DNA of 64,000 nucleotides from Microcella indica (lineage in GTDB: Bacteria > Actinomycetota > Actinomycetes > Actinomycetales > Microbacteriaceae), in assembly GCF_013414345.1 (NCBI RefSeq), contig NZ_CP058670.1, positions 1,488,001 through 1,552,000 on the forward strand, in the 5' to 3' direction. The position numbers were made by a program, and so were the translations under genes. The notes beneath the pieces are model-generated. The model made no database searches and was not told the origin of the DNA. It worked only from the letters and a program-made list of their open reading frames with translations. Below, piece after piece: positions 5,906 through 61,457 of this stretch (within the stretch, counting starts at the first letter, position 1; each line of letters opens with the position of its first letter).

Positions 5906-7540
5906 GTGACCGGTCCCCGTTTCCCCCGTCGTCGGCGCTTCGTCGTGGCGGTGTGCATGGCGGCACCCGCACTCCTCATGAGCATCGCTCTCTCCCTGCT
6001 CCCGGCACCTGCATCTGCATCTGCATCTGCCGAGACGGCAGAGTCAGGGGGAACCATCGTGTACGAGGGCGGCATGCAACTCTCCTCGTCCGACGGTTTC
6101 ACCGTCGACGTCACCGCTCGGCTCACGGTCGAGTGCGCCAACGACGCCAGCTGCACCGCTCTCGTCGTCATCACCGGGGGCGACTTCGTCGCTTCACCGA
6201 CGAACGACCAGGCACTGCCCTTCGCGGCGGGTCGCGCCAGCGCCGACCTCCCCTACTACGGAGACATCTGCCAGTTGCGTTTCATCGGCGCCGGCGCCGT
6301 GACCGTCGACGCGACACCCGATGTGGCCATCGTCACGAGGCAGTCAGCACCTGTCTCGACGAGCTGCCCGGACGGCTCGACCGCGACCGCGTCCGCCGCC
6401 ACGGTGAGCGGCACGCTCTCCTACGTCTCCGGGGCCTCCTGCCTCAGCGACGGCACGTGCCCGACACCCACGCCGACACCGACCCTCACGCCGACCGAGA
6501 CCGCGAGCCCGATGCCGACCACGGCCACCATCGAGCCGGCCGTCGCAACAGAGGCGCGGGACTGGGACGACCCCGGCGTCCTTTCCACACTGCGCCCCTT
6601 TCGCAGTATCGGCACCCCCTCTGCCGCACTGTGGAGCGTCACAGGCGCCATCGTCTTGAGCATCCTCATCGCATTGCCCACCGTTCTGCTCGACGCGACG
6701 AGCGAGCGAGTGACGGAGCGCGCCGAGCAGCGGCGACGTGCGCGGGGGCTCGCGCCGGCTGACCCCTCCGCGCGCCCGCCGCTCACGGTACTCGGCTGGC
6801 CCGCCGCCCTCGCCGGGTTGCTGGTCGCCGCCACCGCCTCGACCTACGTCGACCCCGAATTCGCTTTCGATGCGGCAGGCTGGCGCACGGCAGCGGGCAT
6901 CGACGCCGGATTCCTCGTCGTCATCGCCCTCGGATGGGCGGTCGTCACCGCCGTCATGCGCTCGATCCGGCCCCAGTGGCGACCTCGCATCGAATTCCGG
7001 CCCCTCACGTTGCTGTTCGTCATCACCGCTGTCGCGTTCAGTATCGTGAGCGGCTTCCAGCCCGGCGTGGTCTTTGGTCTCGTCGCGGGAGTGGGGTTCG
7101 CGGGCTCGATCAGCGAGCGCGCTCGTGCCGGCTCGGCCCTGATGCTCGCGGGTTTCATGGTCGTCACCGGCGCTGCGGCATGGGCGGGTTACAGTCTGCT
7201 CGTACCCGTCTTCGACAACCCCGACCTTCTGCAGCTCCTCGCACTCGAATGCCTCGCGGCAATCACCATCGCTGGCTTCTCGGCCCTGCCCATCGCTCTG
7301 CTGCCCCTGCGTGGCCTCCTCGGCCGGGCCGTGTGGCAGTGGAGCCGCCTCGTGTGGGTCGGCCTCTACGCGATCGCGGTGGGCGCCTTCCTCTTCGTGC
7401 TGATCCCCCTGCCGGACTCTTGGCAGTGGGTCGAGCTGGACTACCTCGCGTGGGGCATCGGCTACGCCGTCTACTGCGTCGTCGCCGTCATCGCGTGGGC
7501 GGTCTCCGCGCGCGGGGCAGGTAGCAGCGCTACGACGTAG
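5906..7540 (+). CDS. Secreted-domain plus multi-pass membrane protein, unknown function
   Basis: About 544 residues. An N-terminal signal peptide (arginine-rich, then a hydrophobic stretch to LPAPASASASA) leads to an extracellular domain of about 170 residues with several cysteines. A Pro/Thr stalk (PTPTPTPTLTPTETASP) follows, and then about eight predicted transmembrane helices. The GTG at 5906 is preferred because GAGGAGG lies 6 nt upstream; the frame is open from 5855. A CATCTG tandem repeat around 6010-6029 encodes the Ala-Ser run at the signal-peptide end. No enzyme motif was recognised. The end overlaps the convergent glycosylase gene by 11 nt. Confidence 0.8.
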   Translation: MTGPRFPRRRRFVVAVCMAAPALLMSIALSLLPAPASASASAETAESGGTIVYEGGMQLSSSDGFTVDVTARLTVECANDASCTALVVITGGDFVASPTNDQALPFAAGRASADLPYYGDICQLRFIGAGAVTVDATPDVAIVTRQSAPVSTSCPDGSTATASAATVSGTLSYVSGASCLSDGTCPTPTPTPTLTPTETASPMPTTATIEPAVATEARDWDDPGVLSTLRPFRSIGTPSAALWSVTGAIVLSILIALPTVLLDATSERVTERAEQRRRARGLAPADPSARPPLTVLGWPAALAGLLVAATASTYVDPEFAFDAAGWRTAAGIDAGFLVVIALGWAVVTAVMRSIRPQWRPRIEFRPLTLLFVITAVAFSIVSGFQPGVVFGLVAGVGFAGSISERARAGSALMLAGFMVVTGAAAWAGYSLLVPVFDNPDLLQLLALECLAAITIAGFSALPIALLPLRGLLGRAVWQWSRLVWVGLYAIAVGAFLFVLIPLPDSWQWVELDYLAWGIGYAVYCVVAVIAWAVSARGAGSSATT

Positions 7541-8108
7541 CCTTCTTCGCCGCCTTGGCAGCGCGCTTGAACTCCCGCACCTCGGCGAGCGTCTCGGGGC
7601 TCGTGATGTCGGCGACCGAGCGGCGTGAGCCTTCCACCGCGTAGTCCCCGGCCGCCTCGCGCCACCCGGGCGCGTCCACACCGTACTGCTTGCCGAGGAG
7701 GGCGAGGAAGATGCGCGCCTTCTGCTCGCCGAAGCCGGGCAGTGCCTTCAGCCGCCTCAGAACCTCCGCGCCGTCGGGCTCGCCCCGCGTCCACACTGCC
7801 GCGGCGTCACCCTCCCAGTCGCTCACGAGCTGCGCGCACAGGGTCTGGATGCGCGCGGCCATCGAGCCGGGGAAGCGGTGCACAGCGGGCGACTGCGCGC
7901 ACAGCGCGGCGAACTTCTCGGGGTCGTGCGCGGCGATGGCGCGGGCATCGAACGACCCGAGCCGGTCGCGAATCTTCGCCGGCCCCGCGAACGCGACCTC
8001 CATGGCGACCTGCTGGTCGAGGAGCATGCCGATGAGCAGGGCGAGCGGCTCGGTCGAGAGCAGGCGGTCGGCGTCGGCATCACCCGTGATGTGCAGTTCC
8101 TTCGTCAT
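7530..8108 (-). CDS. HhH-GPD family base-excision repair protein
   Basis: 192 residues with the helix-hairpin-helix-GPD architecture of DNA glycosylases. LIGMLLDQQVAMEVAF is the conserved QQ helix, LKALPGFGEQKARIFLALLG is the hairpin that grips DNA, and GVDAPGWREAAGDY follows at the GPD position. No C-terminal 4Fe-4S cysteine cluster is present, so it is not a standard endonuclease III. This small family is widespread in actinobacteria and its substrate is not settled. The ATG at 8106-8108 is chosen although the frame is open to 8321. It converges on the preceding membrane protein gene with an 11-nt overlap. Confidence 0.85.
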   Translation of the reverse strand: MTKELHITGDADADRLLSTEPLALLIGMLLDQQVAMEVAFAGPAKIRDRLGSFDARAIAAHDPEKFAALCAQSPAVHRFPGSMAARIQTLCAQLVSDWEGDAAAVWTRGEPDGAEVLRRLKALPGFGEQKARIFLALLGKQYGVDAPGWREAAGDYAVEGSRRSVADITSPETLAEVREFKRAAKAAKKATS

Positions 8109-8193
8109 GCCTCCATGGTCGCACCTGAGTGCACGACCCGGCAGTCTCGCTAGGGTGCACGCGACCGACCGACCGACCGAAGGAGGGACGACC

Positions 8194-8463
8194 ATGCCCG
8201 AGAACAACGACAATCCGAGCCTGAAGAACCCCGAGATGTACGAGAAGCTGCGCGATGACGGCGCGTCGAAGGAGAAGGCGGCTCGCATCTCCAACGCTGC
8301 GGCGCGCGACGGCGAGAGCACTGTCGGGTCGCGCGGAGGCGACGCGCCGCCCTACGAGGAGTGGACGGTGGAGGAGCTACGAGACCGCGCGCGGGAGCTC
8401 GACCTCAGCGGCTACAGCGACCTGCGCAAGGAGGAGCTCATCGAGCTGCTGCGCTCGCACTAG
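8194..8463 (+). CDS. Small DUF7218/Rho N-domain-like protein
   Basis: 89 residues beginning MPENNDNPSLKNPEMYEKLR. The first half is the charged DGASKEKAARISNAAA segment typical of small actinobacterial proteins now called DUF7218. The second half (EEWTVEELRDRARELDLSGY, then LRKEELIELLRSH) is a Rho termination factor N-terminal/SAP-like helix-extended-helix. It probably binds nucleic acid, but the exact role is unknown. A strong AGGAGGG site lies 6 nt upstream. The leader holds four GACC repeats (8163-8178), a simple-sequence tract close to the probable promoter. Confidence 0.85.
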   Translation: MPENNDNPSLKNPEMYEKLRDDGASKEKAARISNAAARDGESTVGSRGGDAPPYEEWTVEELRDRARELDLSGYSDLRKEELIELLRSH

Positions 8464-8478
8464 CCGCAGGACGCGCGA

Positions 8479-9483
8479 CTACACCGTCTGCGGCAGAACG
8501 CGCCTCAGGACGTCCGCGAGAGTCACGACCCCGAGCATCCTCTCGCCGTCCATGACGACCGCGAGCTGCACGCTCGCCTCGCGCATGCGCGACATGACCT
8601 CGTACACTGGCGTTCCCGCAGCGATCACATAGGCCGGGCGCGCGGTCGCGGCGGCCGGCGACTGCGGCGCGGCGAGCAGCGTGTCGCGCACGTGCACGAC
8701 ATCCGGTGCGCCGCTCTCCGTATCCAGAAGGATGCGCAGGTGGCCCGAGGCCATCGCGACCTCCTGCACGTCGGCGACGGTCGCGCTGGCGGGCACGGAC
8801 GTAGGCGGGCTGTCGGCCGAGACGAGCGACTCGACCGTGAGCGACTGCAGGTCGATGATGCCGCTGATCTGCCGGCGGAACTCCGGCTCGAGCACACCCG
8901 CCTGCGCCGAGTGCTCCACGAGCTGGCGAATCGTGTCGGCATCCTGACCGCCGACGGCCGCGCGGTCGACAGGTTCGACGCCCGTCGCGGCCACCAGCCG
9001 GTTGGCGATCGCATTGACCCAGCGCAGCAGCGGCCGGAAGACGTTGACGAAGAATCGCGAGGGAATGCCGATGATGCGCGCCGACACCTCTGGGTGCGCG
9101 ATCGCCCACGACTTCGGCGCCATCTCTCCGACGACGAGATGCAGGAACGTCACGAGCAGCAGGGAGAGCGCGAAGGCAGTCGCATCGGATGCCCATTCCA
9201 CGAGTCCCCACGAGGTGAACAGCGGGCCCAGCCACGCGTCGACGGCCGGTTTCGTGACCGCGCCGAGCGCGAAGGTGCACGCCGTGATGCCGAGCTGCGC
9301 GACCGCGAGCATCATCGTGAGCTCGTTGACGCCCTTGAGGGCGGCTCGCGCCGACCTGCTCGTGGTGGCCTGCTCCTCCAGACGATGGCGGCGGGCGCCG
9401 AGCAGCGAGAACTCGATGACGACGAAGAACGCGCTCAGGGCGATGAGCGCGACCGTCGCGGCAAAGACGACCCAGCCGTTCAT
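8479..9483 (-). CDS. CNNM/CBS-domain membrane protein (HlyC/CorC-like family)
   Basis: 334 residues. The N-terminal half is a DUF21/CNNM transmembrane domain starting MNGWVVFAATVALIALSAFFVVIEFSLLGARR, with the conserved GEMAPKSWAIAHPE. The C-terminal half carries a CBS pair, ending VMDGERMLGVVTLADVLRRVLPQ. This family is linked to Mg2+/divalent cation efflux or homeostasis. It overlaps the upstream, larger paralogue by 4 nt (ATGA), so the two are co-translated and may form a heteromeric transporter. It lacks the C-terminal CorC_HlyC domain of its partner. Confidence 0.9.
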   Translation of the reverse strand: MNGWVVFAATVALIALSAFFVVIEFSLLGARRHRLEEQATTSRSARAALKGVNELTMMLAVAQLGITACTFALGAVTKPAVDAWLGPLFTSWGLVEWASDATAFALSLLLVTFLHLVVGEMAPKSWAIAHPEVSARIIGIPSRFFVNVFRPLLRWVNAIANRLVAATGVEPVDRAAVGGQDADTIRQLVEHSAQAGVLEPEFRRQISGIIDLQSLTVESLVSADSPPTSVPASATVADVQEVAMASGHLRILLDTESGAPDVVHVRDTLLAAPQSPAAATARPAYVIAAGTPVYEVMSRMREASVQLAVVMDGERMLGVVTLADVLRRVLPQTV

Positions 9484-27029: not shown

Positions 27030-27347
27030 ATGACCGACGCCGCCCGCGACGCCCTCCGCGCGTTCGTGGCCGAACGCGACTGGGCACAGTTCCACTCCCC
27101 CGAGAACCTCGCCAAGAGCATCTCCATCGAGGCCGGCGAACTGCTCGAGTGCTACCAGTGGAACGCCGACGCGGACCCCGAAGCCGTGCGCGACGAGCTC
27201 GCCGACGTGCTCAGCTACTGCCTCATGCTTGCCGACAAGCTCGGCCTCGACCCCGAACAGATCGTGCTCGAGAAGCTCGAGCGCAGCCGCGCCAAGTATC
27301 CGGCCGACAAGGCGCGCGGGCGCAGCGAGAAGTATGACCGGCTCTAG
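27030..27347 (+). CDS. MazG-like nucleotide pyrophosphohydrolase
   Basis: 105 residues of the all-alpha NTP pyrophosphatase superfamily. SIEAGELLECYQW carries the ExxE half and VRDELADVLSYCLMLADKLG the ExxD half of the Mg2+-binding site. Single-domain members hydrolyse dNTPs or modified nucleotides; some act in defence by depleting nucleotides. The gene overlaps the start of the GIY-YIG/DUF2075 gene by 14 nt, so the two are almost certainly translated together. Confidence 0.9.
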   Translation: MTDAARDALRAFVAERDWAQFHSPENLAKSISIEAGELLECYQWNADADPEAVRDELADVLSYCLMLADKLGLDPEQIVLEKLERSRAKYPADKARGRSEKYDRL

Positions 27348-29139
27348 CATCGAGCGGCTCCCCTTCGACCGCGACGCCGTCCGCGTGTGGAGCGCGCTCG
27401 ACACGCGCCACCGCAACTGGCCGACCGTTTACGTCATCGACGGAGGCGGCACGAGCGGCACCGGGACCGGCAAGCCCACCGCTAAGACCCTCGACGACGT
27501 CTACGTCGGCGAAACCGTCAACGCCGCCGCCCGCATGCTGCAGCACCTCGACTCCCCCACCAAGCAGCACCTCACCAGCGTCCGCGTAGTCCTTGACGAC
27601 CGCTTCAACAAGTCCGCCTGCCTCGACCTCGAGTCGCACCTCATCCGCCTCCTCGCTGGCGACGGCACCTACCGCGTGCTCAACCGCAACGAAGGCATCA
27701 CCGACTCCGACTACTACGAGCGCGAGCTCTACCGCGAGTCGTTCCGGGACGTGTTCGAGCAGCTGCGCGCCGAAGGCATCTTCAGCCGCAGCATCCCCGA
27801 GATCGAGAACAGCGACCTGTTCAAGCTCTCCCCCTACAAGGCGCTCACCGACGACCAGGCGGCCGCCGTCGAAGACATCGTCGAAGGCCTCCTCGACGAC
27901 GTCGACAAGAACATCGGCGACCTGCTCGTCGTGCAAGGCGAACCCGGCACCGGCAAGACCGTCGTCGCCATCTACCTCATGAAGCTGCTCGCCGACATCG
28001 CCGCATCCAAGCCCGACGACGAGCCCGACGCCGACTCCGTCTTCGCCGAATTCTTCACCGACGAGAACCGCGTGCTGCTCAAGGACTTCACCGTCGGGCT
28101 CGTCGTACCCCAGCAGTCGCTGCGTAAGAGCATCCAGGCCGTGTTCCGTCGCACTCCCGGCCTCCACCCGCGCCAAGTGCTCACCCCGTTCGATGTCGGC
28201 GGCAGCGACACCCACTGGGATCTCCTCATCGTCGACGAAGCTCACCGCCTCAACCAGCGCGCCAACCAGGCCTCCGGCGTGCTCAACAAGAAGTTCGCCG
28301 ACAACAATGTGCGCCTGTTCGGCGCCGACGACCCCGCCAAAACGCAGCTCGACTGGATCCGCGCCCGCAGCCGCCACCAGCTGATCATGGTCGACCCCGA
28401 GCAGAGCGTGCGCCCCGCCGACCTGCCGCCCGAACTCATGCGCGCCCTCGTCGACGACGCCAAAGCCGACCACCGGCACTACCCGCTCACCTCACAGCTG
28501 CGGGTCCGCGCCGGCGAGGACTACATCGGCTGGGTGCGCAGCATCCTGCGCCCCGGGCTCCCGCTACCGGATGCTCCGCCTCCCGCACCCCGCACCTTCG
28601 AGGGCTACGACCTGCGGTTCTTCGACGACCTCGGCGAAATGCACGACGCCATCCGCGAGCGCGACACCGAACACGGGCTTGCGCGCCTCGTCGCCGGCTA
28701 CGCGTGGGAGTGGAAGAGTCGCAGCGACCCGACCGCCTACGACATCGAGCTCGACGGCCGCCAGCTGCGCTGGAACACCACCGCCACCGACTGGATCGCC
28801 TCGAAGACTTCTCTCGACGAAGTCGGCTCGATCCACACCGTGCAGGGCTACGACCTCAACTACGCCGGCGTCATCATCGGCAACGACCTGCAGTGGGACG
28901 AGGATGCTCAGCGCCTGGTCGTCGACCGTGACAGCTATTTCGACAAGAAGGGCAAGGAGAACAACCCGACGCTCGGCAAGACGTATAGCGATGAGGATCT
29001 GCTGCGGTACGTGTCCAATGTGTATGCGGTATTGATGACGAGGGGGATCCGGGGGACATACGTTTACGTTTGCGGTCAGCACCTATCTGATCGCCTGAAG
29101 GCCCTCTTCGTTCACAAGTTCGATCGCCACTCGCAGTGA
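27334..29139 (+). CDS. GIY-YIG nuclease fused to DUF2075 helicase-like ATPase
   Basis: 601 residues. The N-terminal GIY-YIG-type nuclease (about 30-120) has VYV at 32-34, VYVG at 56-59, Arg67, Glu100 in CLDLESHLI and Asn117. The DUF2075 P-loop helicase domain follows: Walker A GEPGTGKT (202-209), Walker B LLIVDEAH (297-304) and the late motifs IHTVQGYDLNYAGVIIG and YAVLMTRG of SF1-like enzymes. ATG 27334 is inside the MazG-like gene and gives a start directly before conserved sequence. DUF2075 proteins occur in defence loci and near restriction systems. The fusion predicts ATP-driven DNA cleavage. Confidence 0.88.
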   Translation: MTGSSIERLPFDRDAVRVWSALDTRHRNWPTVYVIDGGGTSGTGTGKPTAKTLDDVYVGETVNAAARMLQHLDSPTKQHLTSVRVVLDDRFNKSACLDLESHLIRLLAGDGTYRVLNRNEGITDSDYYERELYRESFRDVFEQLRAEGIFSRSIPEIENSDLFKLSPYKALTDDQAAAVEDIVEGLLDDVDKNIGDLLVVQGEPGTGKTVVAIYLMKLLADIAASKPDDEPDADSVFAEFFTDENRVLLKDFTVGLVVPQQSLRKSIQAVFRRTPGLHPRQVLTPFDVGGSDTHWDLLIVDEAHRLNQRANQASGVLNKKFADNNVRLFGADDPAKTQLDWIRARSRHQLIMVDPEQSVRPADLPPELMRALVDDAKADHRHYPLTSQLRVRAGEDYIGWVRSILRPGLPLPDAPPPAPRTFEGYDLRFFDDLGEMHDAIRERDTEHGLARLVAGYAWEWKSRSDPTAYDIELDGRQLRWNTTATDWIASKTSLDEVGSIHTVQGYDLNYAGVIIGNDLQWDEDAQRLVVDRDSYFDKKGKENNPTLGKTYSDEDLLRYVSNVYAVLMTRGIRGTYVYVCGQHLSDRLKALFVHKFDRHSQ

Positions 29140-29709
29140 CCACATCGCGACGAAGAGTCTGACGAATCGCCGAGTACGCTCGGTCGGCCAATTGCTTGAC
29201 GGTCACTCTCACCCAGCATCCATCATTGCGAGTAGCACCGTACCTCAGCGATCGCGGTCGTATGCTTCCGAAGAGCGAGTAGCGCAATTGCGGAACGTAG
29301 TGCGCGCAGAAGTCGAGGCCACTCTCAAAGCTCATCCTCGAGGCCTGCCAAGTCGAGCGGCCTGTCGTCTCCAAGGCGCCCGCACAACCACTTTGCCCGG
29401 GTAACGGCAACATAGATGATGCAATGGTCCTCGAAATCCTGCTGAAGACCCCCCTCTAGCATCGCAACTTGAGCCGACGACAAGACAACTCCCACGCGTG
29501 ACCACTCCTGGCCCTTCGCTTGAAAAACGGTCAGACCGGGAATGAGATCGGTTCTCGGGAGGCGCGCAGCGATCTGGGCGATCTGCTCGACTAGCGCAGC
29601 CTCCTTACTTGGGTCGCCTAGTCTGCTGGGCCTGCGCACACCCAAAGACTTAACGGGCTCTTCGCAGTTGAGGGGGTAGGTCGGTAGCGCGTCGGGGTCT
29701 GGAGACAGG

Positions 29710-29766
29710 GTCGAGGTCTTCCAGGATGGAAGTTCTTCAGGCTCACCATCCGAGAAAGACCTCGAC
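29710..29766 (+). promoter_or_regulatory. Leader hairpin at the ISL3 transposase start
   Basis: GTCGAGGTCTT (29710-29720) pairs perfectly with AAGACCTCGAC (29756-29766), which ends at the base before the GTG start codon. In a transcript reading in from outside, this 11-bp stem would hide the ribosome site, so it may limit transposase made from external promoters. Function inferred from position. Confidence 0.5.
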
Positions 29767-31068
29767 GTGCTCAACGCTACCTTCGACCCCGCCGATCTGA
29801 CTGTCTTCTGCCGTCTCGAGGAGCTCGGACTCGTGGTCGCCGGGCAGCGGATCGAGGCACATCGGGCGGTGTTGGAGTGCCGGATCGTGGAGCCGGACCA
29901 GTGGTGCCGGTGGTGCGGGGCGGAGGGTGTCTCGCGCGGCACCGAGGCGAGACGGCTCGCGCATGTCCCGTTCGGCGAGCGGCCGACGACGTTGCTGGTG
30001 CGGGTGCGCCGCTACCGGTGCTCGGGATGCGGCAGGTCGTGGCGGCAGGACAGCACCGCGGCGGCTGAGCCGAGGTCGAAGCTGTCCCGTGGAGCGCTCA
30101 CCTGGGCGCTCACCGCGCTCGTCGTGGACCATCTCACGATCAGCCGAGTCGCAGCTCGGCTCGGGGTGTCCTGGCACACGGCCAACAGTGCTGTTTTGGA
30201 GGAAGGCCGTCGGAGGCTGATCGGCGATCCGGCCCGCTTCGATGGGGTCACCGTGATCGGTGTCGATGAACACGTCTGGCGGCACACGAGGTTCGGGGAC
30301 CGCTACGTGACCGTGGTCATCGACCTGACCCCGGTGCGTGACGGGACGGGTCCGGCGCGGCTGCTGGACATGGTCGAGGGCCGATCGAAGCCGGTGTTCA
30401 AGACCTGGCTCGAGCAGCAGTCCCCGGCGTTCCGGGCCGGGATCGAGGTGGTCGCGATGGATGGGTTCACCGGCTTCAAGACCGCCGCCGCCGAAGCCCT
30501 CCCCGACGCGATCGAGGTGATGGACCCGTTCCACGTCGTCCAGCTCGCCGGCGACGCCCTCGACCGCACCCGGCAACGCGTCCAACAGCACACCCTCGGC
30601 CACCGCGGCCACGCCGGCGATCCGCTCTATGGTGTTCGCCGCGCCCTGCACACCGGGGAAGCGTTCCTCACCGACCGACAGCGCGCCCGCATCGAGGCGG
30701 TGTTCGCCATCGACGAGCATGTCGAGGTCGAGACCACCTGGGCCGTCTACCAGAGCATCGTCGCCGCCTACCGGCACCCCGACCGAGCCGCCGGGCGCCG
30801 AGCCCTGCAAGCGGTGATCGACTCGCTGCGTCACGGCGTTCCCGAAGTCCTCGTCGAGCTGGGCAAGCTCGGCCGCACCCTGCATCGCCGCGCCGGCGAC
30901 GTGCTGGCCTATTTCGACCTGCCCGGCACCTCGAACGGTCCAACCGAGGCGATCAACGGCCGACTCGAACACCTCCGCGGCAGTGCGCTCGGCTTCCGCA
31001 ACCTCAGCAACTACATCGCCCGCAGCCTGCTCGAAAGCGGCGGATTCAGACCCCACCTACCCGCTTGA
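29767..31068 (+). CDS. ISL3-family transposase
   Basis: 433 residues. The N-terminal zinc-ribbon part (CRWCGAEGV...RRYRCSGCGRSW) is followed by an HTH (VARLGVSWHTANSAV) and the DDE domain: VIGVDEHVWR (first Asp), VVAMDGFTGFKTAAAEALPDAIEVMDPFHVVQL (second Asp) and SNGPTEAINGRLEHLRG (Glu). GTG start within the element; intact, so the IS is probably active. Confidence 0.95.
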   Translation: MLNATFDPADLTVFCRLEELGLVVAGQRIEAHRAVLECRIVEPDQWCRWCGAEGVSRGTEARRLAHVPFGERPTTLLVRVRRYRCSGCGRSWRQDSTAAAEPRSKLSRGALTWALTALVVDHLTISRVAARLGVSWHTANSAVLEEGRRRLIGDPARFDGVTVIGVDEHVWRHTRFGDRYVTVVIDLTPVRDGTGPARLLDMVEGRSKPVFKTWLEQQSPAFRAGIEVVAMDGFTGFKTAAAEALPDAIEVMDPFHVVQLAGDALDRTRQRVQQHTLGHRGHAGDPLYGVRRALHTGEAFLTDRQRARIEAVFAIDEHVEVETTWAVYQSIVAAYRHPDRAAGRRALQAVIDSLRHGVPEVLVELGKLGRTLHRRAGDVLAYFDLPGTSNGPTEAINGRLEHLRGSALGFRNLSNYIARSLLESGGFRPHLPA

Positions 31069-32135
31069 TTGCGAAGAGCCACTTAACGGTGTCGCGCAGT
31101 GCATCCAGGACTGTGACAGCATCTTCGCCAGCCATTAGGCGGGCGACCAACGGCTCCATGATCTCTCGCTGCTTCTGCAGGAAAGAGTCACGATCTATTT
31201 TGAGCTTAGCTATCGCGCTTTCTCGGCCATGCGCGTTTTCGCCGAGTCGAGACTTCGTGACGACATCAAGTAGAAGCAGAATCGCAGCATCTGACTTGTT
31301 TTCGACGTTCCGAAAGGCCAATGGTAGGACGTTGTCCCCGACTCTCCATAGATCTCGCCAGCGTCGCGCCAGTGCAACATCAATGTCTTCACTTGAGATA
31401 GGTGGCAAGCTCGCCTTCTCGCCACGTCGGAGAGCGGCAGCAAGCTCTGGCATTTGTGTGCCATGAAATCGGAAAGACTGACTAAGGATTCGACAGTTGA
31501 ACCGGTCAGTGGTCGCCTCCAACAACTTCGCAACGAGATGAGGCTGCGCGCCCCTCCATTTGTAGAGTGCCTGCCAGGGGTCTCCGATCGTAGTCACAGA
31601 CGAACCCGAATCGGCCGCAAGTCGAGCGACCTCTATGTCAAGCTCGTCAGCGTCGTACACCTCGTCGATGATGATTGCTCTGTAGCTACTGGAAAGCCAA
31701 TCGGAGATGAGCGCGCGTAGGTCAACATCTTCAAGCACTGCGCGAAGTACATGTCTGACATCTTCGTGATCCACAATGCCCTGCCCAAGTATGGACTGGT
31801 GTTTGGCCTTGGCTCCTACACCCCGTGCTGGCTTGGTGACCATCCGACTAAGTGACACCACTTGTCGTTTCGAGTTTAGGCTCGCGTAGCGCCGCCAATT
31901 GCGATCTGGGACGAGGTACGTGAATCCGTCAAGCCCTCGGTAGTCGTCCCGAACGTCGAGACGCTCATGACTCCCAGGCCAGCTGATGATCTTTTCTCTT
32001 ATGAGTCGATGAATTAGGTCAACATAGACGTGATCAAAGGTGGCAATTCGATGTGGGTACACGAGGCAAGATTCGCCCCAGCGGCTAGTGACTCTGGCCT
32101 GACCCCGTGTTTCGGTCCACGCCGTTTGGGAGTCG

Positions 32136-32939
32136 TCACGGGTTTCGATGCGTGCAGTCCCGAGCATAGGCCGCCGGGGTCCGGTAGCCGAGCGCGGAGT
32201 GGCGACGGCCATGGTTGTAGTCCCTTTTCCAGTCGCCGATCACGACCCGGGCATGGTGCAGGCTGTAGAAACTGTTCAGGTTCAAACACTCGTCGCGAAT
32301 GCGGGAGTTGAACGATTCCACGTAGCCGTTGCGCCACGGCTGGCCCGGCGGAATGTAGGAGATCCCCACCGAGTCGTTCGCCCAGTCGGCGAGGGTTTGG
32401 GAGACGAACTCGGGCCCGTTGTCGCACCGCAACACAGTCGGCAGGCCACGGTGGGCGACGATGCGCTCCAGTTCGTCCACGAGCCGGTCGGCGGTGATCG
32501 AGCGCTCCACGAGCCCGCCGACGCATTCGCGGGTGTGCTCATCGATGATCGAGGCGATCTTCAGGTTGCGACCGTTCTCGGTGGCATCGAACTGGAAATC
32601 CACCGCCCACACCGTGTTAGGCGCGTCAGCCGGGATAGGTTCAGCGGTGGAGGCGCCGACGCGTTTGCGGCGACGACGCACGATCACCCGCAGGCCTTCC
32701 TCACGCCAGAGCCGTTGGATCTTCTTGACGTTCACCACCCAGCCCTCACCGACGGCGTCGGCGTGGGCGTTGCGGTAGCCGCGCCGAGGATGAGTCTTCG
32801 CCCACGCTCGCAGCCACGTCCGCAATGCAGCGTCTGGGTCGGCGCAGGTCTCCGAGACCAAGGGTCGGCGCCAGGCCGATCTGCTCAGCCCGACCAGACG
32901 ACACGCCATCCGCTCACTGATGTCGAACACGCTCAGCAA
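32136..32939 (-). CDS. IS3-family transposase OrfB, DDE integrase domain (copy A)
   Basis: 267 residues from the in-frame TTG; in the OrfAB fusion the frame joins upstream at the GGGAAAC slip site. The rve-type catalytic residues are VWAVDFQFDA (Asp), LRCDNGPEFVSQ (Asp) and GYVESFNSRIRDECLN (Glu, DDE with the IS3 spacing). Intact. Confidence 0.95.
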   Translation of the reverse strand: MLSVFDISERMACRLVGLSRSAWRRPLVSETCADPDAALRTWLRAWAKTHPRRGYRNAHADAVGEGWVVNVKKIQRLWREEGLRVIVRRRRKRVGASTAEPIPADAPNTVWAVDFQFDATENGRNLKIASIIDEHTRECVGGLVERSITADRLVDELERIVAHRGLPTVLRCDNGPEFVSQTLADWANDSVGISYIPPGQPWRNGYVESFNSRIRDECLNLNSFYSLHHARVVIGDWKRDYNHGRRHSALGYRTPAAYARDCTHRNP

Positions 32940-32971
32940 GTGACGGATCGCGGCGCGGCGTCTGCCCGGGC

Positions 32972-33256
32972 CTAAAAGTTTCCCTCTGCCAGCTCCTTCA
33001 ACGCCGCCTTCTCCAGCTCCGCCTCAGCCAGCAGTCGCTTCAAGGTCGCGTTCTGTTTCTCGAGCTCTTTGAGCCGTTTCGCGTCTTCTGCTTTCAGGCC
33101 GCCGTATTGGTTGCGCCACCGGTAGTAGGTCTGCTCCGACACGCCGAGCTCCCGGCAGGCAGCTGCAACGTCGCCGCCATCGGCCAGGACACGGTCAGCG
33201 ATGCCGAGCTTGCGAACGATCTGTTCCGGCGTGTGCCGGCGCCTTCTCGTGGTCAT
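32972..33256 (-). CDS. IS3-family transposase OrfA (copy A)
   Basis: 94 residues from MTTRRRRHTPEQIVRKL. IADRVLADGGDVAAACRELGVSEQTYYRWRNQYGGL is the HTH that binds the IS ends, followed by a leucine-zipper-like helix (LKELEKQNATLKRLLAEAELEKAALKEL). A slippery heptamer GGGAAAC (complement of 32978-32984) just before the stop allows a -1 frameshift into orfB to make the OrfAB transposase. Confidence 0.95.
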   Translation of the reverse strand: MTTRRRRHTPEQIVRKLGIADRVLADGGDVAAACRELGVSEQTYYRWRNQYGGLKAEDAKRLKELEKQNATLKRLLAEAELEKAALKELAEGNF

Positions 33257-33535
33257 GATGAATCCAGTCTTCCTCCCCGACGAGCGGGGCAACAAGACGA
33301 CTCTCATAACGAACGGACCGAAAATCTGGGGTCAGGCCAACTCGTTGAGCTAGCTCTCGAGCTGCTGCTCGGTTAAACGTGAGCCCCAAGACGCCTCTGT
33401 CATCCCCACGTTGGTATCGATGGAAGCCAAAACGCTCCGCAGCGACCGTGGTCTTTCCACTGCCCGGAGCCGAGACGATGTCCACCAGCCGATCCTCGGA
33501 CGCGGCTGCGAGCACTTGCTCATCTGTGAGATGGA

Positions 33536-35386
33536 TCATTGATCCTGAGCGGAGGAATCCGTGCGCTTGACAGCTCCACCGTCATAGAGCCAATCGAACA
33601 TAGCCTCCAGTTCGGCCGGAACATGGAATGCGGCCCGATCCGAGTCGATGGCGTCGGCAAGTGCTACTGAGAATGCCCCCTTGTCGACGCCTCGAGCTCT
33701 GAAATGCTGATCGATACCGTCAGCCGTGAAAGCGAACGGTCTTGTCAGACCAGCTGTGTCAAACACTGCTTCGAAGAGAGACTCATTTCCAGCCGCGAGA
33801 GATGGCTCCAAGGTCGGCATTGACCAGAAGAACTTTGCGGTATCGGCGTCCAATTCGGTGTGCCAAGCAGGTGGCTTAAATGATTTCCCAACGTCGCGGT
33901 GATCTGTATCTGCGAGCGCTGCTACGCGGGCAACAATTTCATGCCCAGGAGTGGCAAGAAGCCGAATTGGCCATTTTCCTATCTTGTGACCGACCGGGAA
34001 TATGGCAAGCGCATCGACAAAGGCGAACTTGCTGCGATCGCCGGCGGCCCACGCCCGACCGATGACCCGCATGAGCATCGCTTCGGTTACACCTTCAACG
34101 ACGAGGAGGTTTTCAGCGAACAGGGCGGCGGAGCGGTTCGCATCGAGGTGGAGTCGTGTTTGCCGCAAGAGAGACTCCCGCTCCCCAGGAGCGATGGGGA
34201 CAGATCCAAGTGCACGGGCCACGGGGCGCCCCGTCTGCTCACGACGCAAGACAACGATCTCCGCAGGATCGCAAGCCGCAATGAGTTCTGAAGAGTGCGT
34301 GGTGACGATCACCTGGATCTCTGGTCGAGCGCGTACGACTTCACGCAGATAGCGAATCAGACCGTATTGAAGCTGAGGATGGAGGTGCGCTTCCGGTTCC
34401 TCAAGCAGAACTGTCACGTGAAATAGGTCCGGGTAGAAAGAGTCCGCGTCTGCTTCGGCGGATTCTGCCGTCTCGGCTAGTCGCGCCCTAGCCGCAGATG
34501 CGTCGAAGTCCTCAGAACTTTCGGACCTGCTGACCTGATCCTCCGTCGGTGCAACGCTCGGGCTGGATGCCTCAATCTCCTCTGGTCGGGACAAGTCAGG
34601 AATCCCAGCCAGCGTGACTGCAATGTGCAGGAGGTTGACGAATCCAAGGCTTGATACTTCAAGGCGTTTGCCCGCCAGTCGGTCTGGTACGAGAGCAAGC
34701 AAGAGTTCAAGCACTCGCGCGAGATATCCATCATCAACTCTCTGGTGTCCAAAGAATGCGAAGTGCTCTCGGACCCCGGCGCTCGCCATCGATAGGTGAT
34801 TCCCGATTCGCTCTTCAAGGCCCACGAGGAGGTCGTGCTCAGTCATCGAGGTGAGCATCGCGTCGGCAACGGAGCGAAGCGACGCAAGGCCACCGGTCTC
34901 GGGGCGCCGTCGCTCCTCAGCACGAAGAAGCTCAAGCAACACGCGTGCGTCGCGTCGCGAAAGGTCATCGATGGGGTTCCTCTGGGCTGGGAGATACACC
35001 AATCGCACGTTCTCGTGCCCCTCCGTGGGCGACACGACATGCCCAGCGCGAACCTTGCCGAGTGAACGCTCGAGCGGGCGCCCCCATCTCGGGGCTTCAT
35101 GGCCCATTTCGTAGAGCGATCGCCCGAGCGCGCCCTCAGCTTCGAGGTCGCCTTCCAACGAGTACTGGACATCAACCGCGCGAGGCGTGTCTCCTAGGGC
35201 TGCTCCGTCGATCGCCGGAAGTTGCGGAAAACGATGACGATGCGCCAACACGATGGCTTCGTTGATAGTGGTCTTGCCAGTCCCGTTCGCACCGACGATT
35301 AGAGAAAAGCGTCCGGGCAATTCACACGAGATTGGGTCGACAGCCGATGCACGAAACCCGTTAACCTCTACACGACGAAGATGCAC
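33536..35386 (-). CDS. gajA: Gabija-type OLD-family ATPase/TOPRIM nuclease
   Basis: 616 residues. ABC-type ATPase halves: Walker A GANGTGKT (32-39), Walker [13 protein letters not shown] (327-338) and H-loop TTHSSEL (362-368). The TOPRIM nuclease has [13 protein letters not shown] (Glu431) and LADTD (Asp493, Asp495). This is the layout of class 2 OLD nucleases and GajA, which nick DNA when NTPs fall during phage attack; GajB is the partner helicase. GTG start with GAGGAG 5 nt upstream. It overlaps the disrupted gajB by 4 nt. Codon use is less GC-biased than in the core genes, in line with acquisition beside a tRNA. Still open, but probably without a working partner. Confidence 0.9.
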
Positions 35387-35761
35387 CTGGACTCCTCAAT
35401 CCGATGATTGCCACATTGGTCGTGAAATTGAGCGACCTGGGCTCCTTAATGGACCGACGCACGCAATGGTCTGTGGGGCAACGTCGGCCAATCTGGCCGA
35501 CGGAATTGACAATAGATCAGTGGACGCTTGCGAGACAGAAGTTCGACCGCGTGTCATCAGCACAGATCTTGCTCGACTGCGAGTGAAACGAACACGCCGA
35601 CCCGGTACGACAACACAAACGCGAGCAGGTTGGTCTTCGCGAGTTGAAGAGAGATGGCAGGTTGTGGATTTGTCCCCACCGGCTCCCCCACACGTTGCTG
35701 CGCAACGCGTGGGGCCCCTCGCGCGGCGTGGGCCCACCTGCTCGCAGGTGCAATGTTGATT
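35387..35761. other. Gap upstream of gajA with a hairpin cluster
   Basis: 375 bp with no credible gene. The gajA promoter should lie near 35390-35500. The tRNA-proximal part has a 13-bp hairpin with one mismatch and a TGC loop (35686-35698 with 35702-35714) and a perfect CACCTGC-TC-GCAGGTG palindrome (35735-35750). Next to it is the long palindrome at 35762-35822. The cluster may mark an old junction of the accessory stretch. Confidence 0.5.
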
Positions 35762-35812
35762 AGCCCGACCAAATGAAATGAGGGGCCGTCGTTGACGGCC
35801 CCTCATTTCATT

Positions 35813-35822
<10 letters not shown>
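35762..35822. repeat. 29-bp perfect inverted repeat covering the tRNA-Pro 3' end
   Basis: Arms 35762-35790 and 35794-35822 are exact complements with a GTT loop. The right arm contains the last bases of the tRNA including CCA, so the left arm is an inverted copy of the tRNA 3' end plus 18 bp of flank. On the minus strand the inner GGGGCCGTC-AAC-GACGGCCCC followed by TCATTTCATTT should act as the tRNA terminator. Confidence 0.85.
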
Positions 35823-35889
<67 letters not shown>

Positions 35890-35982
35890 TGGCTGGCCCG
35901 ACGTGCGTGGGCCGGGAGCAAGCTTAGCGGAGGTGGAGGGGTGGTGCGTGCGGGCACCGCGAGACACTGACGAGCTTCGCCG

Positions 35983-36867
35983 TCAGGGGGCAACCAGGGT
36001 GGGCAGGGTGTTCGGGTCGTGGGCGGGGAGGAGGCGCAGGGTTGGGTTCAGGGACTGGAGGGCCACGAGACGACGTGCAGTGTCTAGCTGAGTAGCGCGG
36101 TCTCCCACGTCGGGCACTATGGCGCGCGGGAGCAGGCTGGGGTCGTAGGTGGCGTCTCCTGCGAGGAGGAGAGGCGGAGCATCCCCTCGGCGGATCAGGA
36201 GGCTCATCGAACCCGGGGTATGGCCGGGGGTGGGCAGGAGGAGCAGCGTGCCGTCGTCGTGGATGTCGTGGGCGGTGGCGAAGGGGGCGAGCAGCGGATC
36301 ATCCGTGGGGGTGAACGACACCGGGGTGAACGCGGCGGTGGGCGGGGCCACGTGGTCGGGCAGGATGCCGTGCAGCTGCGGGCGCTTCTCGTCGAGCAGG
36401 GCCAGCTCGTCCGCAGCCACCAGAACCGGCGTGGAACCCAGCTGCGGCACACCGCCGGCATGATCCTGGTGCAGGTGCGACAGAGCGGCGTAGGCGAGCG
36501 ACGAGACCGGATGCCCGATCTCGGCCAGCTGCGTCGTCAAATCGTGCTCGGGGCTCACCTCGAAGCGCGCCTGCCGGCGGTACACCCAGCCGAGCGGGCC
36601 CCGCGAGTAGAAGTCGGGGTCGGTCACGGAGGCGAGCGGCTGGCCCGTGTCGAACAGCACCGTGCCGCGCTCGTGCTCGACGACGAAGACGTGCACGGGC
36701 AGCCATTCGCTCCACGTGCGGGCGGTGAGCGTCCACCACAGCATGGGAGTTCCCGTGCCGGCGATGTTCTTCGGCCGCACCTGCACGCGGCCGACCGTGA
36801 GGGCGTGCACGGCGCCGACCGGGCCGGAGGAGGGTGCGGGGGCGACCGCGCGGGCAGGAGCTGACAT
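35983..36867 (-). CDS. Metallo-beta-lactamase-fold hydrolase (AHL-lactonase-like family)
   Basis: 294 residues. SHLHQDHAGG is the HxHxDH zinc motif. PTPGHTPGSMSLL gives the next His, LLAGDATYD the bridging Asp, and LLPAHDP the last His, so both zinc sites are complete. The N-terminal VFVVEHERGTVLFDTGQP pattern is typical of the N-acyl-homoserine-lactonase-type subfamily, but the substrate may be another lactone or ester. No signal peptide. Confidence 0.88.
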   Translation of the reverse strand: MSAPARAVAPAPSSGPVGAVHALTVGRVQVRPKNIAGTGTPMLWWTLTARTWSEWLPVHVFVVEHERGTVLFDTGQPLASVTDPDFYSRGPLGWVYRRQARFEVSPEHDLTTQLAEIGHPVSSLAYAALSHLHQDHAGGVPQLGSTPVLVAADELALLDEKRPQLHGILPDHVAPPTAAFTPVSFTPTDDPLLAPFATAHDIHDDGTLLLLPTPGHTPGSMSLLIRRGDAPPLLLAGDATYDPSLLPRAIVPDVGDRATQLDTARRLVALQSLNPTLRLLPAHDPNTLPTLVAP

Positions 36868-36902
36868 GGGGTCAGTATTGCACCGAGGTCACCCGGCTCG
36901 GC

Positions 36903-37364
36903 TCAGAAGGGCGTGAGGTGAGGCAGGACGAGGCGGACAGCTCGCACCGCCTCCTGAGCGACGGTGATCGCATCCGTCGCGTCATCCGCCGTCGCGGACG
37001 GGGTGTCAACAGACGGGTACTCGTTGTCGTTGCGTGCACGACGGATGCGGTCCACCTGACGGCCGATCCGATTCGGCGGGTCGAGCTGGGCAGAGACCGC
37101 CTCCGTGACGGCGATGTGGCCACCCGAGCGGGTGGGCCGGATGCCCTGCGCGAGCAGGAGCGAGGTGAGCGCCTTGCGTGCCGCGTCGTAGGCAAGTGCC
37201 AGCGCGCCGACGGGGTCTTCCTCCACGATCGACCTGGCTGCCGTGACGTGGGTGTCGCACAGCTCCAGGGAGCGCTCAGCGAATTCAGGTTGCGCGGCGA
37301 CCCTCTCGAGTTCACCGCGGTGCAGAAGCTGCTCGATCGTCGCCCGGCCCTGCTCCCATGTCAT
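36903..37364 (-). CDS. HEPN-domain protein, probable RNase toxin
   Basis: 153 residues, all-helical. AARSIVEEDPVGALALAYDAARKALTSLLLAQGIRPTRSGGHIAV is a HEPN helix bundle. RQVDRIRRARNDNEYP is the catalytic-helix region (R-x-RN-x-x-EY variant of Rx4-6H). HEPN proteins are metal-independent RNases and the toxin of HEPN/MNT modules. It overlaps the upstream HTH-MNT gene by 4 nt. Confidence 0.85.
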   Translation of the reverse strand: MTWEQGRATIEQLLHRGELERVAAQPEFAERSLELCDTHVTAARSIVEEDPVGALALAYDAARKALTSLLLAQGIRPTRSGGHIAVTEAVSAQLDPPNRIGRQVDRIRRARNDNEYPSVDTPSATADDATDAITVAQEAVRAVRLVLPHLTPF

Positions 37365-37951
37365 GCGCTTACTCCGGTGTCGACGTCAAGGTCGACCCAT
37401 GGTCGCGCACGCACCGTCGCGACGAAAGGATCATCCACAGTCGCCCATCGCTCCGGGGTGATCGTCGTGGCGTTGACCTCCCGACGCAGCCGACCCTCTG
37501 CTCGCCGCAGAGCGTCGTACAGCTCATCGCGATCAGGTCGCCCGACTACGAGCAGATCGATGTCACCGGGCGGCGGGCCGGGCTCTCCACGGCGTCGCGC
37601 GGCCCACGAGCCGAAGAGCACCGCCTGCACGATGCCCGGCACCGACGACAATTCGCGGGCGACGACGGGCTGCGGCCCGTGCGCGAACATCGCGATCTCC
37701 CGCACCGCCTCGGCAAGAGGGTGGCGCACGTTGAGTCGGTAGACCGCTCGACGCCCCACCGGAGTCGCCTCGATGATGCCCGCGTCGTGCAGGCGGGCAA
37801 GCTCGCGCGTCACCGTGGGCAGGCTCGCGTCGACGTGCCGCGCCAAGTCGGCCGCCGTCTCCCCTCGATGGCTGAGCTCGAGGGTGGCCAGGATCTGCCC
37901 CTGCGCGTCGGATCGCAGAAGAGGGAAGATCGCCGGTGCCTCTACTTTCAT
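37361..37951 (-). CDS. Winged-HTH fused to MNT nucleotidyltransferase, antitoxin of the HEPN pair
   Basis: 196 residues. Residues 1-80 form a winged HTH (LLRSDAQGQILATLELSHRGETAADLARHVDASLPTVTRELARLHDAGIIEATPVGRRAVYRLN). Residues about 100-190 are a minimal nucleotidyltransferase with LFGSWAARRRG and GDIDLLVVG (GS...DxD). In HEPN/MNT modules the MNT inactivates HEPN by AMPylation; here it also carries its own DNA-binding domain. The ATG at 37949-37951 lies within a palindrome and lacks a ribosome site, so the transcript is probably leaderless. Confidence 0.88.
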   Translation of the reverse strand: MKVEAPAIFPLLRSDAQGQILATLELSHRGETAADLARHVDASLPTVTRELARLHDAGIIEATPVGRRAVYRLNVRHPLAEAVREIAMFAHGPQPVVARELSSVPGIVQAVLFGSWAARRRGEPGPPPGDIDLLVVGRPDRDELYDALRRAEGRLRREVNATTITPERWATVDDPFVATVRARPWVDLDVDTGVSA

Positions 37952-37976
37952 AAACAAGATGCTAGCATTTGTTTAT
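37950..37976. promoter_or_regulatory. Operator-like palindrome at the HTH-MNT/HEPN start
   Basis: ATAAACAAGATGCT faces AGCATTTGTTTAT: a 13-bp inverted repeat with one bulged base, AT-rich and overlapping the start codon of the HTH-MNT gene. It is the likely binding site for its winged HTH. Confidence 0.68.
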
Positions 37977-38020
37977 TGAAAGTTTATAGGGATCTGTGGC
38001 GAGCCCGTTGCCCAAGCCCG

Positions 38021-60007: not shown

Positions 60008-60271
60008 GGGGTTTCATCGTATCCGACTTGCGGGCCGACGGCTCCCGACGCGCGCACCGCTCCCGTCGGCACCCTCCCGGGCCCTCCCCCGGAGAGGGGA
60101 TTCTGCGCTCGGGATCGGTGAGGCATCATCGAGGGTGAGTCTGGTGCTGCGGTCTCGGAGACCTGCCTGCCCTCGTCACTCGACGCACTGGCCTGACCCC
60201 AGATTTTCGGTCCGTTCGTTATGAGAGTCGTCTTGTTGCCCCGCTCGTCGGGGAGGAAGACTGGATTCATC

Positions 60272-60556
60272 ATGACCACGAGAAGGCGCCGGCACACGCC
60301 GGAACAGATCGTTCGCAAGCTCGGCATCGCTGACCGTGTCCTGGCCGATGGCGGCGACGTTGCAGCTGCCTGCCGGGAGCTCGGCGTGTCGGAGCAGACC
60401 TACTACCGGTGGCGCAACCAATACGGCGGCCTGAAAGCAGAAGACGCGAAACGGCTCAAAGAGCTCGAGAAACAGAACGCGACCTTGAAGCGACTGCTGG
60501 CTGAGGCGGAGCTGGAGAAGGCGGCGTTGAAGGAGCTGGCAGAGGGAAACTTTTAG
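60272..60556 (+). CDS. IS3-family transposase OrfA (copy B)
   Basis: 94 residues identical to copy A (MTTRRRRHTPEQIVRKL... ending KELAEGNF). The slip heptamer GGGAAAC at 60544-60550 precedes the TAG stop, allowing the -1 shift into orfB. Confidence 0.95.
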   Translation: MTTRRRRHTPEQIVRKLGIADRVLADGGDVAAACRELGVSEQTYYRWRNQYGGLKAEDAKRLKELEKQNATLKRLLAEAELEKAALKELAEGNF

Positions 60557-60588
60557 GCCCGGGCAGACGCCGCGCCGCGATCCGTCAC

Positions 60589-61392
60589 TTGCTGAGCGTG
60601 TTCGACATCAGTGAGCGGATGGCGTGTCGTCTGGTCGGGCTGAGCAGATCGGCCTGGCGCCGACCCTTGGTCTCGGAGACCTGCGCCGACCCAGACGCTG
60701 CATTGCGGACGTGGCTGCGAGCGTGGGCGAAGACTCATCCTCGGCGCGGCTACCGCAACGCCCACGCCGACGCCGTCGGTGAGGGCTGGGTGGTGAACGT
60801 CAAGAAGATCCAACGGCTCTGGCGTGAGGAAGGCCTGCGGGTGATCGTGCGTCGTCGCCGCAAACGCGTCGGCGCCTCCACCGCTGAACCTATCCCGGCT
60901 GACGCGCCTAACACGGTGTGGGCGGTGGATTTCCAGTTCGATGCCACCGAGAACGGTCGCAACCTGAAGATCGCCTCGATCATCGATGAGCACACCCGCG
61001 AATGCGTCGGCGGGCTCGTGGAGCGCTCGATCACCGCCGACCGGCTCGTGGACGAACTGGAGCGCATCGTCGCCCACCGTGGCCTGCCGACTGTGTTGCG
61101 GTGCGACAACGGGCCCGAGTTCGTCTCCCAAACCCTCGCCGACTGGGCGAACGACTCGGTGGGGATCTCCTACATTCCGCCGGGCCAGCCGTGGCGCAAC
61201 GGCTACGTGGAATCGTTCAACTCCCGCATTCGCGACGAGTGTTTGAACCTGAACAGTTTCTACAGCCTGCACCATGCCCGGGTCGTGATCGGCGACTGGA
61301 AAAGGGACTACAACCATGGCCGTCGCCACTCCGCGCTCGGCTACCGGACCCCGGCGGCCTATGCTCGGGACTGCACGCATCGAAACCCGTGA
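60589..61392 (+). CDS. IS3-family transposase OrfB (copy B)
   Basis: 267 residues identical to copy A, with the same DDE residues. In the fusion protein the frame is open upstream to the slip site (GGG-AAA-CTT-TTA...). Intact, so this copy can also move. Confidence 0.95.
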   Translation: MLSVFDISERMACRLVGLSRSAWRRPLVSETCADPDAALRTWLRAWAKTHPRRGYRNAHADAVGEGWVVNVKKIQRLWREEGLRVIVRRRRKRVGASTAEPIPADAPNTVWAVDFQFDATENGRNLKIASIIDEHTRECVGGLVERSITADRLVDELERIVAHRGLPTVLRCDNGPEFVSQTLADWANDSVGISYIPPGQPWRNGYVESFNSRIRDECLNLNSFYSLHHARVVIGDWKRDYNHGRRHSALGYRTPAAYARDCTHRNP

Positions 61393-61457
61393 CGACTCCC
61401 AAACGGCGTGGACCGAAACACGGGGTCAGGCCAGCACCACCAGGAGGGAGCCACGTG

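Follow-up and report, generated by a model that had tools for sequence, protein, structure and literature searches.

We found a Gabija-type locus in Microcella indica in which gajB, the second gene, is cut by two different insertion sequences. It is very probably a horizontally acquired Gabija operon that was inactivated by separate IS3-family and ISL3-family insertions into gajB. The locus lies in a window of 64,000 nucleotides (bases 1488001-1552000 of a genome that consists of one contig of 2,585,348 bases), and positions below refer to this window unless stated otherwise.

Both genes are on the minus strand, gajA preceding gajB, and the start of gajB overlaps the stop of gajA. The gajA gene (33536-35386, minus strand) is uninterrupted, has a GTG start and encodes 616 amino acids. 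Its product matches the PADLOC GajA profile (E=1.5e-46) and the Pfam family AAA_15 (5.6e-20). In a motif search and in alignment A1, all of the ATPase and TOPRIM motifs sought are present, one of them as a shorter string. The open frame and the profile match agree with the first-pass annotation of this DNA, which had described the gene as intact. A scan with the sigma-70 consensus only found no promoter-like site upstream of gajA.

Gabija, a two-gene bacterial defence against phages, combines GajA, an OLD-type ATPase with a TOPRIM nuclease, and GajB, a UvrD-like helicase encoded beside gajA; its further hallmarks are anti-phage activity and a 4:4 GajA-GajB complex. PADLOC, AAA_15 and the motifs all identify GajA here, and GajB is present as remains only. 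As in Gabija, both genes occur in the same order, with overlapping stop and start, and match the family profiles; the difference is that gajB is cut twice. The separate GajA and GajB profile matches thus bear out the earlier naming of the locus as Gabija-type. Without a partner, gajA would resemble class 1 OLD, a single-gene nuclease with the same ATPase and TOPRIM architecture. However, it scores far better with the GajA profile (versus 1.1e-18 for class 1 OLD), and gajB remains lie downstream. Similarity to solved structures is more distant. Against PDB, the profile of this GajA subfamily is nearest to Thermus OLD (2.4e-18) and matches the solved GajA of B. cereus much more remotely (about 1e-5, profile residues 320-434). 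For the GajB profile, the match to UvrD (2.6e-16) is a little stronger than that to solved GajB (2.5e-13). These scores place the subfamily at a considerable distance from the B. cereus type; the name Gabija rests on the PADLOC models and gene order.

The remains of gajB form three pieces on the minus strand. Piece 1 (33340-33539, 200 nt) contains the N-terminus, beginning at the ATG that overlaps the gajA stop, and what we take to be helicase motifs I and Ia. Piece 2 (31081-32090, 1010 nt) carries presumed motifs II-IV, and piece 3 (29325-29647, 323 nt) carries presumed motifs V-VI, the C-terminus and the stop codon. The motifs thus follow the right order across the joints, as originally described. 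A search of the rebuilt protein against GajB profiles had been suggested; searched apart, each piece already matches the PADLOC GajB profile (1.8e-9 for the ORF at 33195-33539, 1.1e-16 for 31046-32212 and 5.4e-6 for 29325-29942). Searched in the same way, the pieces also match Pfam UvrD domains, although for piece 3 the match to UvrD_C_2 is only 1.2e-4, which is under the curated cut-off.

The three pieces also fit a single relative. As the reference for alignment we used the uninterrupted GajB (512 residues) from G050, a genome that belongs to a different genus of the same family. Piece 1 is identical at 49/66 positions to residues 1-66, piece 2 at 176/336 positions to residues 68-403 without gaps, and piece 3 at 54/102 positions to residues 406-512. 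The stop-free phases are 0, 1 and 2 for pieces 1, 2 and 3, respectively, and the sole stop, in piece 3, is the terminal one. With lengths of 200, 1010 and 323 nt, these phases fit one frame, so the previously reported 1533 nt free of stops once the elements are removed is correct. Among 20,000 random sequences of 510 codons with matching base composition, none was free of stops. A profile of four intact GajB proteins recovers the three pieces in order from the M. indica genome (2.6e-107, 1.9e-28 and 6.7e-26). No second gajB was found in this genome with the same profile; its seven further hits, all in frames 726-1655 residues long, score weakly (5.9e-7 to 2.2e-4). The genome's only gajB is thus interrupted, with two insertion sequences inside it. 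These comparisons support the view that the remains represent one full-length gene, colinear with intact relatives.

The element between pieces 1 and 2 (32095-33339, minus strand, 1245 bp) belongs to the IS3 family. Members of this family have OrfA (HTH_Tnp_1) and OrfB (rve), TG...CA ends and a 3-5 bp target duplication. All of these are present here, with transposase ORFs at 32972-33307 and 32136-32939 and the duplication ACTC on the piece 1 side (33340-33343) and the piece 2 side (32091-32094). The element between pieces 2 and 3 (29656-31080, plus strand, 1425 bp) belongs to the ISL3 family, which is recognized by a DDE_Tnp_ISL3 transposase, GGCTCTTCGC-type ends and an 8-bp duplication. It likewise has all three; its transposase is encoded at 29767-31068, and its 8-bp duplication, ACTTAACG, occurs at 31081-31088 on the piece 2 side and at 29648-29655 on the piece 3 side. 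These are therefore two separate elements, each with its own duplication, and the first-pass annotation had correctly assigned both to their families and treated them as independent insertions.

Copies elsewhere in the genome establish where the elements end. The IS3-family element has six identical copies, and the ISL3-family element has seven near-identical copies and one relative at 71%. When we read the flanks of the 13 identical or near-identical copies, the duplications proved perfect throughout, 4 bp long at 6/6 IS3 sites and 8 bp long at 7/7 ISL3 sites. Since all 13 copies have perfect duplications, the element ends are fixed without reference to gajB. We rejected GGCC, which brackets the IS3 core, as the target duplication. 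All six IS3 copies start with TGGCC and finish with GGCCA, and GGCC is therefore part of the inverted repeat of the element.

A second identical copy of the IS3-family element lies in the window at 60189-61433, in reversed orientation. An OLD-type gene elsewhere in the genome (genome positions 440955-442976; L035 6956-8977) was considered as a second Gabija system hit by the same ISL3 element, and rejected. Its best PADLOC match is the single-gene Old system, the other nine proteins scanned there have no PADLOC match, and the ISL3 copy is located about 215 bp past the end of the gene.

Insertion sequence copies are repeats, a usual cause of misjoins, and an assembly error could in principle have misplaced them into an intact gajB. 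We regard this as exceedingly improbable, given that the genome is a single contig, that perfect duplications, different for the two elements, flank both of them, and that the pieces fit one relative with almost nothing missing.

The setting of the locus is consistent with acquisition by transfer. Between 21 and 36 kb, GC content drops to 0.56-0.67, versus 0.69 window-wide, with the exception of one ISL3-bearing kilobase at 0.70. A tRNA-Pro gene is located at the right edge. In the close relative G009, two stretches (35655-37983 and 28577-29068) show 89% DNA identity. The homology ends at window base 29068 and restarts at 35655; 3.7 kb with other ORFs lies between, and no GajA match was found in G009. 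Neighboring candidate defence genes encode a Schlafen-group-3 helicase whose N-terminal part is PDC-S14-like (27229-29139) and a HEPN and nucleotidyltransferase-type (PDC-M05A-type) pair (36903-37957). Also in the window are a MazG-like protein, an M78 peptidase and a NERD protein. We infer that the locus is a variable defence site, and that gajAB arrived there by transfer.

We also considered the tRNA-Pro gene as an attachment site and rejected it; within the window, no direct repeat occurs at the other island edge. Beside the gene there is only a 49-nt inverted partial copy of its 3′ end (window 35742-35842), and the stretch containing this copy is matched nearly whole in seven other genomes of the genus.

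Relatives of the locus are sparse. A GajA search of 26 genomes of the genus gave a full match only in M. indica itself, and four others have partial matches (1e-6 to 2.6e-4). The search of the 25 other genomes, of which 18 are at least 90% complete, thus revealed no close GajA. Two others among 398 genomes drawn from the family, G050 and G406, have GajA at 1e-20 or better, as do four others among 394 genomes drawn from the class at 1e-60 or better. Among 134 plasmid records matching GajA, two, both from Streptomyces, cover at least 80% of the protein. A phage collection yielded three partial matches to GajA. A first GajA scan of the named genome contigs confirmed no relative; a second scan, with alignment A1, found at least three distant loci (27-30% identity) that were excluded from the analysis, and this second scan does not measure absence.

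In 8/8 relatives (two from the family, four from the class and two on plasmids), gajA is followed by gajB, as judged by annotation in two cases, a 512-aa open frame in two and a near-full-length single-frame match in four. Both genes are uninterrupted in seven of them. The exception is G406, another genus of the same family (L034, corresponding to G406:C1:1292000-1306000). Its gajA is itself interrupted near the 3′ end by an element that we judged by eye to be IS3-type (L034 about 7377-8888), and its gajB (L034 9062-10600) was used in alignment A2. The G050 and G406 proteins are 59-61% identical to the M. indica GajA, and the G050 GajB is about half to three quarters identical to the pieces described above. 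In G050 (L033 7347-12997) and G406 (L034 64-5717), the genes immediately before gajAB encode a type IIG/DrmMI-like methylase and a helicase of the PLD/SNF2 kind, which for G406 were identified by Pfam scan only. By contrast, these genes are absent upstream of gajA in M. indica. In both genomes, methylase, helicase, gajA and gajB are possibly a four-gene defence operon.

The first-pass annotation had suggested looking for uninterrupted relatives in sister strains, and had named sister strains lacking an uninterrupted frame as grounds for abandoning its reading. Intact forms do exist in other genera, but none turned up among the genomes of the genus that were searched. Taken literally, an uninterrupted frame is indeed lacking in the 25 genus genomes, but only because the entire locus is absent there.

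It was also proposed that two hits on one gene suggest relaxed selection or a benefit of losing it; the benefit we could not establish. If Gabija were costly, through self-damage or exclusion of useful DNA, gajB insertions would be favoured. A 1.5-kb gene was hit twice, and given one gajB hit, the probability that another of the 12 insertions lands there is 0.007-0.06. The element inside gajA of G406 points the same way. On the other hand, the chance that any gene is shared by two of the 13 insertions is 0.03-0.33: a Poisson estimate for a gene of 1.0-1.5 kb gives 0.03-0.045 when insertions can fall anywhere in the genome, and 0.14-0.33 when they are confined to an assumed tolerant space of 300-500 kb. 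Moreover, a single insertion suffices to kill gajB, so the second gives selection nothing extra, and both genes are uninterrupted in most relatives. Five of the 13 insertions lie in four genes of recognisable family, and the other eight are tied to no named gene. These four are gajB (twice), a TrwC-type relaxase-helicase gene, a PRTase-CE gene and a DUF3800 gene; the three besides gajB are also of accessory type. The pattern fits accumulation in dispensable DNA. The double hit is thus weak evidence for selected loss, which we consider unlikely.

The IS3 copy inside the TrwC-type relaxase-helicase gene is the same element as in gajB (L013, G000:C1:1147405-1151649). The same ISL3 element splits the PRTase-CE gene (L021, G000:C1:2405895-2410315), whose PADLOC matches, to PRTase_III-A and RT_UG10, are weak.

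In the reading that we favor, inactivation by two insertions after transfer, a gajA-gajB operon would have been acquired horizontally, and we assume that it was functional on arrival. That the lineage once had a working system, as earlier suggested, is not established for this host. IS3-family and ISL3-family elements, both apparently recently active in the genome, would then have inserted separately, breaking gajB between motifs Ia and II and between motifs IV and V. The clean pieces suggest that the insertions are recent, and that there has been no selection since to keep the system. Judging from its sequence, a twice-cut gajB is not expected to yield a working helicase. With no working GajB there would be no GajA-GajB complex, and hence presumably no Gabija defence, although a shortened GajB or a trans-acting helicase may supply the function. 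Because gajA is upstream of both breaks, its expression may continue, and translation would leave a nuclease without its helicase partner.

Such a protein might have been retained as a lone OLD-type nuclease after gajB was lost, given that gajA is open, has its motifs and lies upstream of both breaks. In the available portions of PMC10681800 and PMC10781630, GajA alone degrades its target DNA in vitro, and in the latter it forms a tetramer; in the former's own assay, GajB had no effect on the nuclease. In the accessible part of PMC10822852, the GajA-GajB complex is described as having greater substrate selectivity and greater sensitivity to nucleotides than GajA by itself. However, PMC10681800 reports both genes to be essential in vivo. 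In addition, gajB follows gajA in every relative, and a recent insertion accounts equally well for an intact gajA. Retention as a lone nuclease is therefore very unlikely. We give hardly any credence to the broader idea that gajB loss with gajA kept is a maintained state, in which GajA would be a lone nucleotide-sensing nuclease and insertion sequences convert a two-gene defence into a one-gene defence.

Our literature search found no Gabija paper joining pseudogenisation, disruption and insertion sequence, and the available portions of PMC13304284, PMC9148166 and PMC11514479 do not describe a gajB split by two insertion sequences. We do not claim that Gabija loci broken by such elements are unreported. 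The case is ordinary pseudogenisation, a clean example of the loss of a defence gene, and it leaves knowledge of Gabija itself unchanged. Regardless, a survey in which any GajA match counts as presence of Gabija would get this genome wrong. The locus offers a snapshot of defence-system turnover, in which mobile elements have broken a system that was transferred into a variable site adjoining a tRNA gene.
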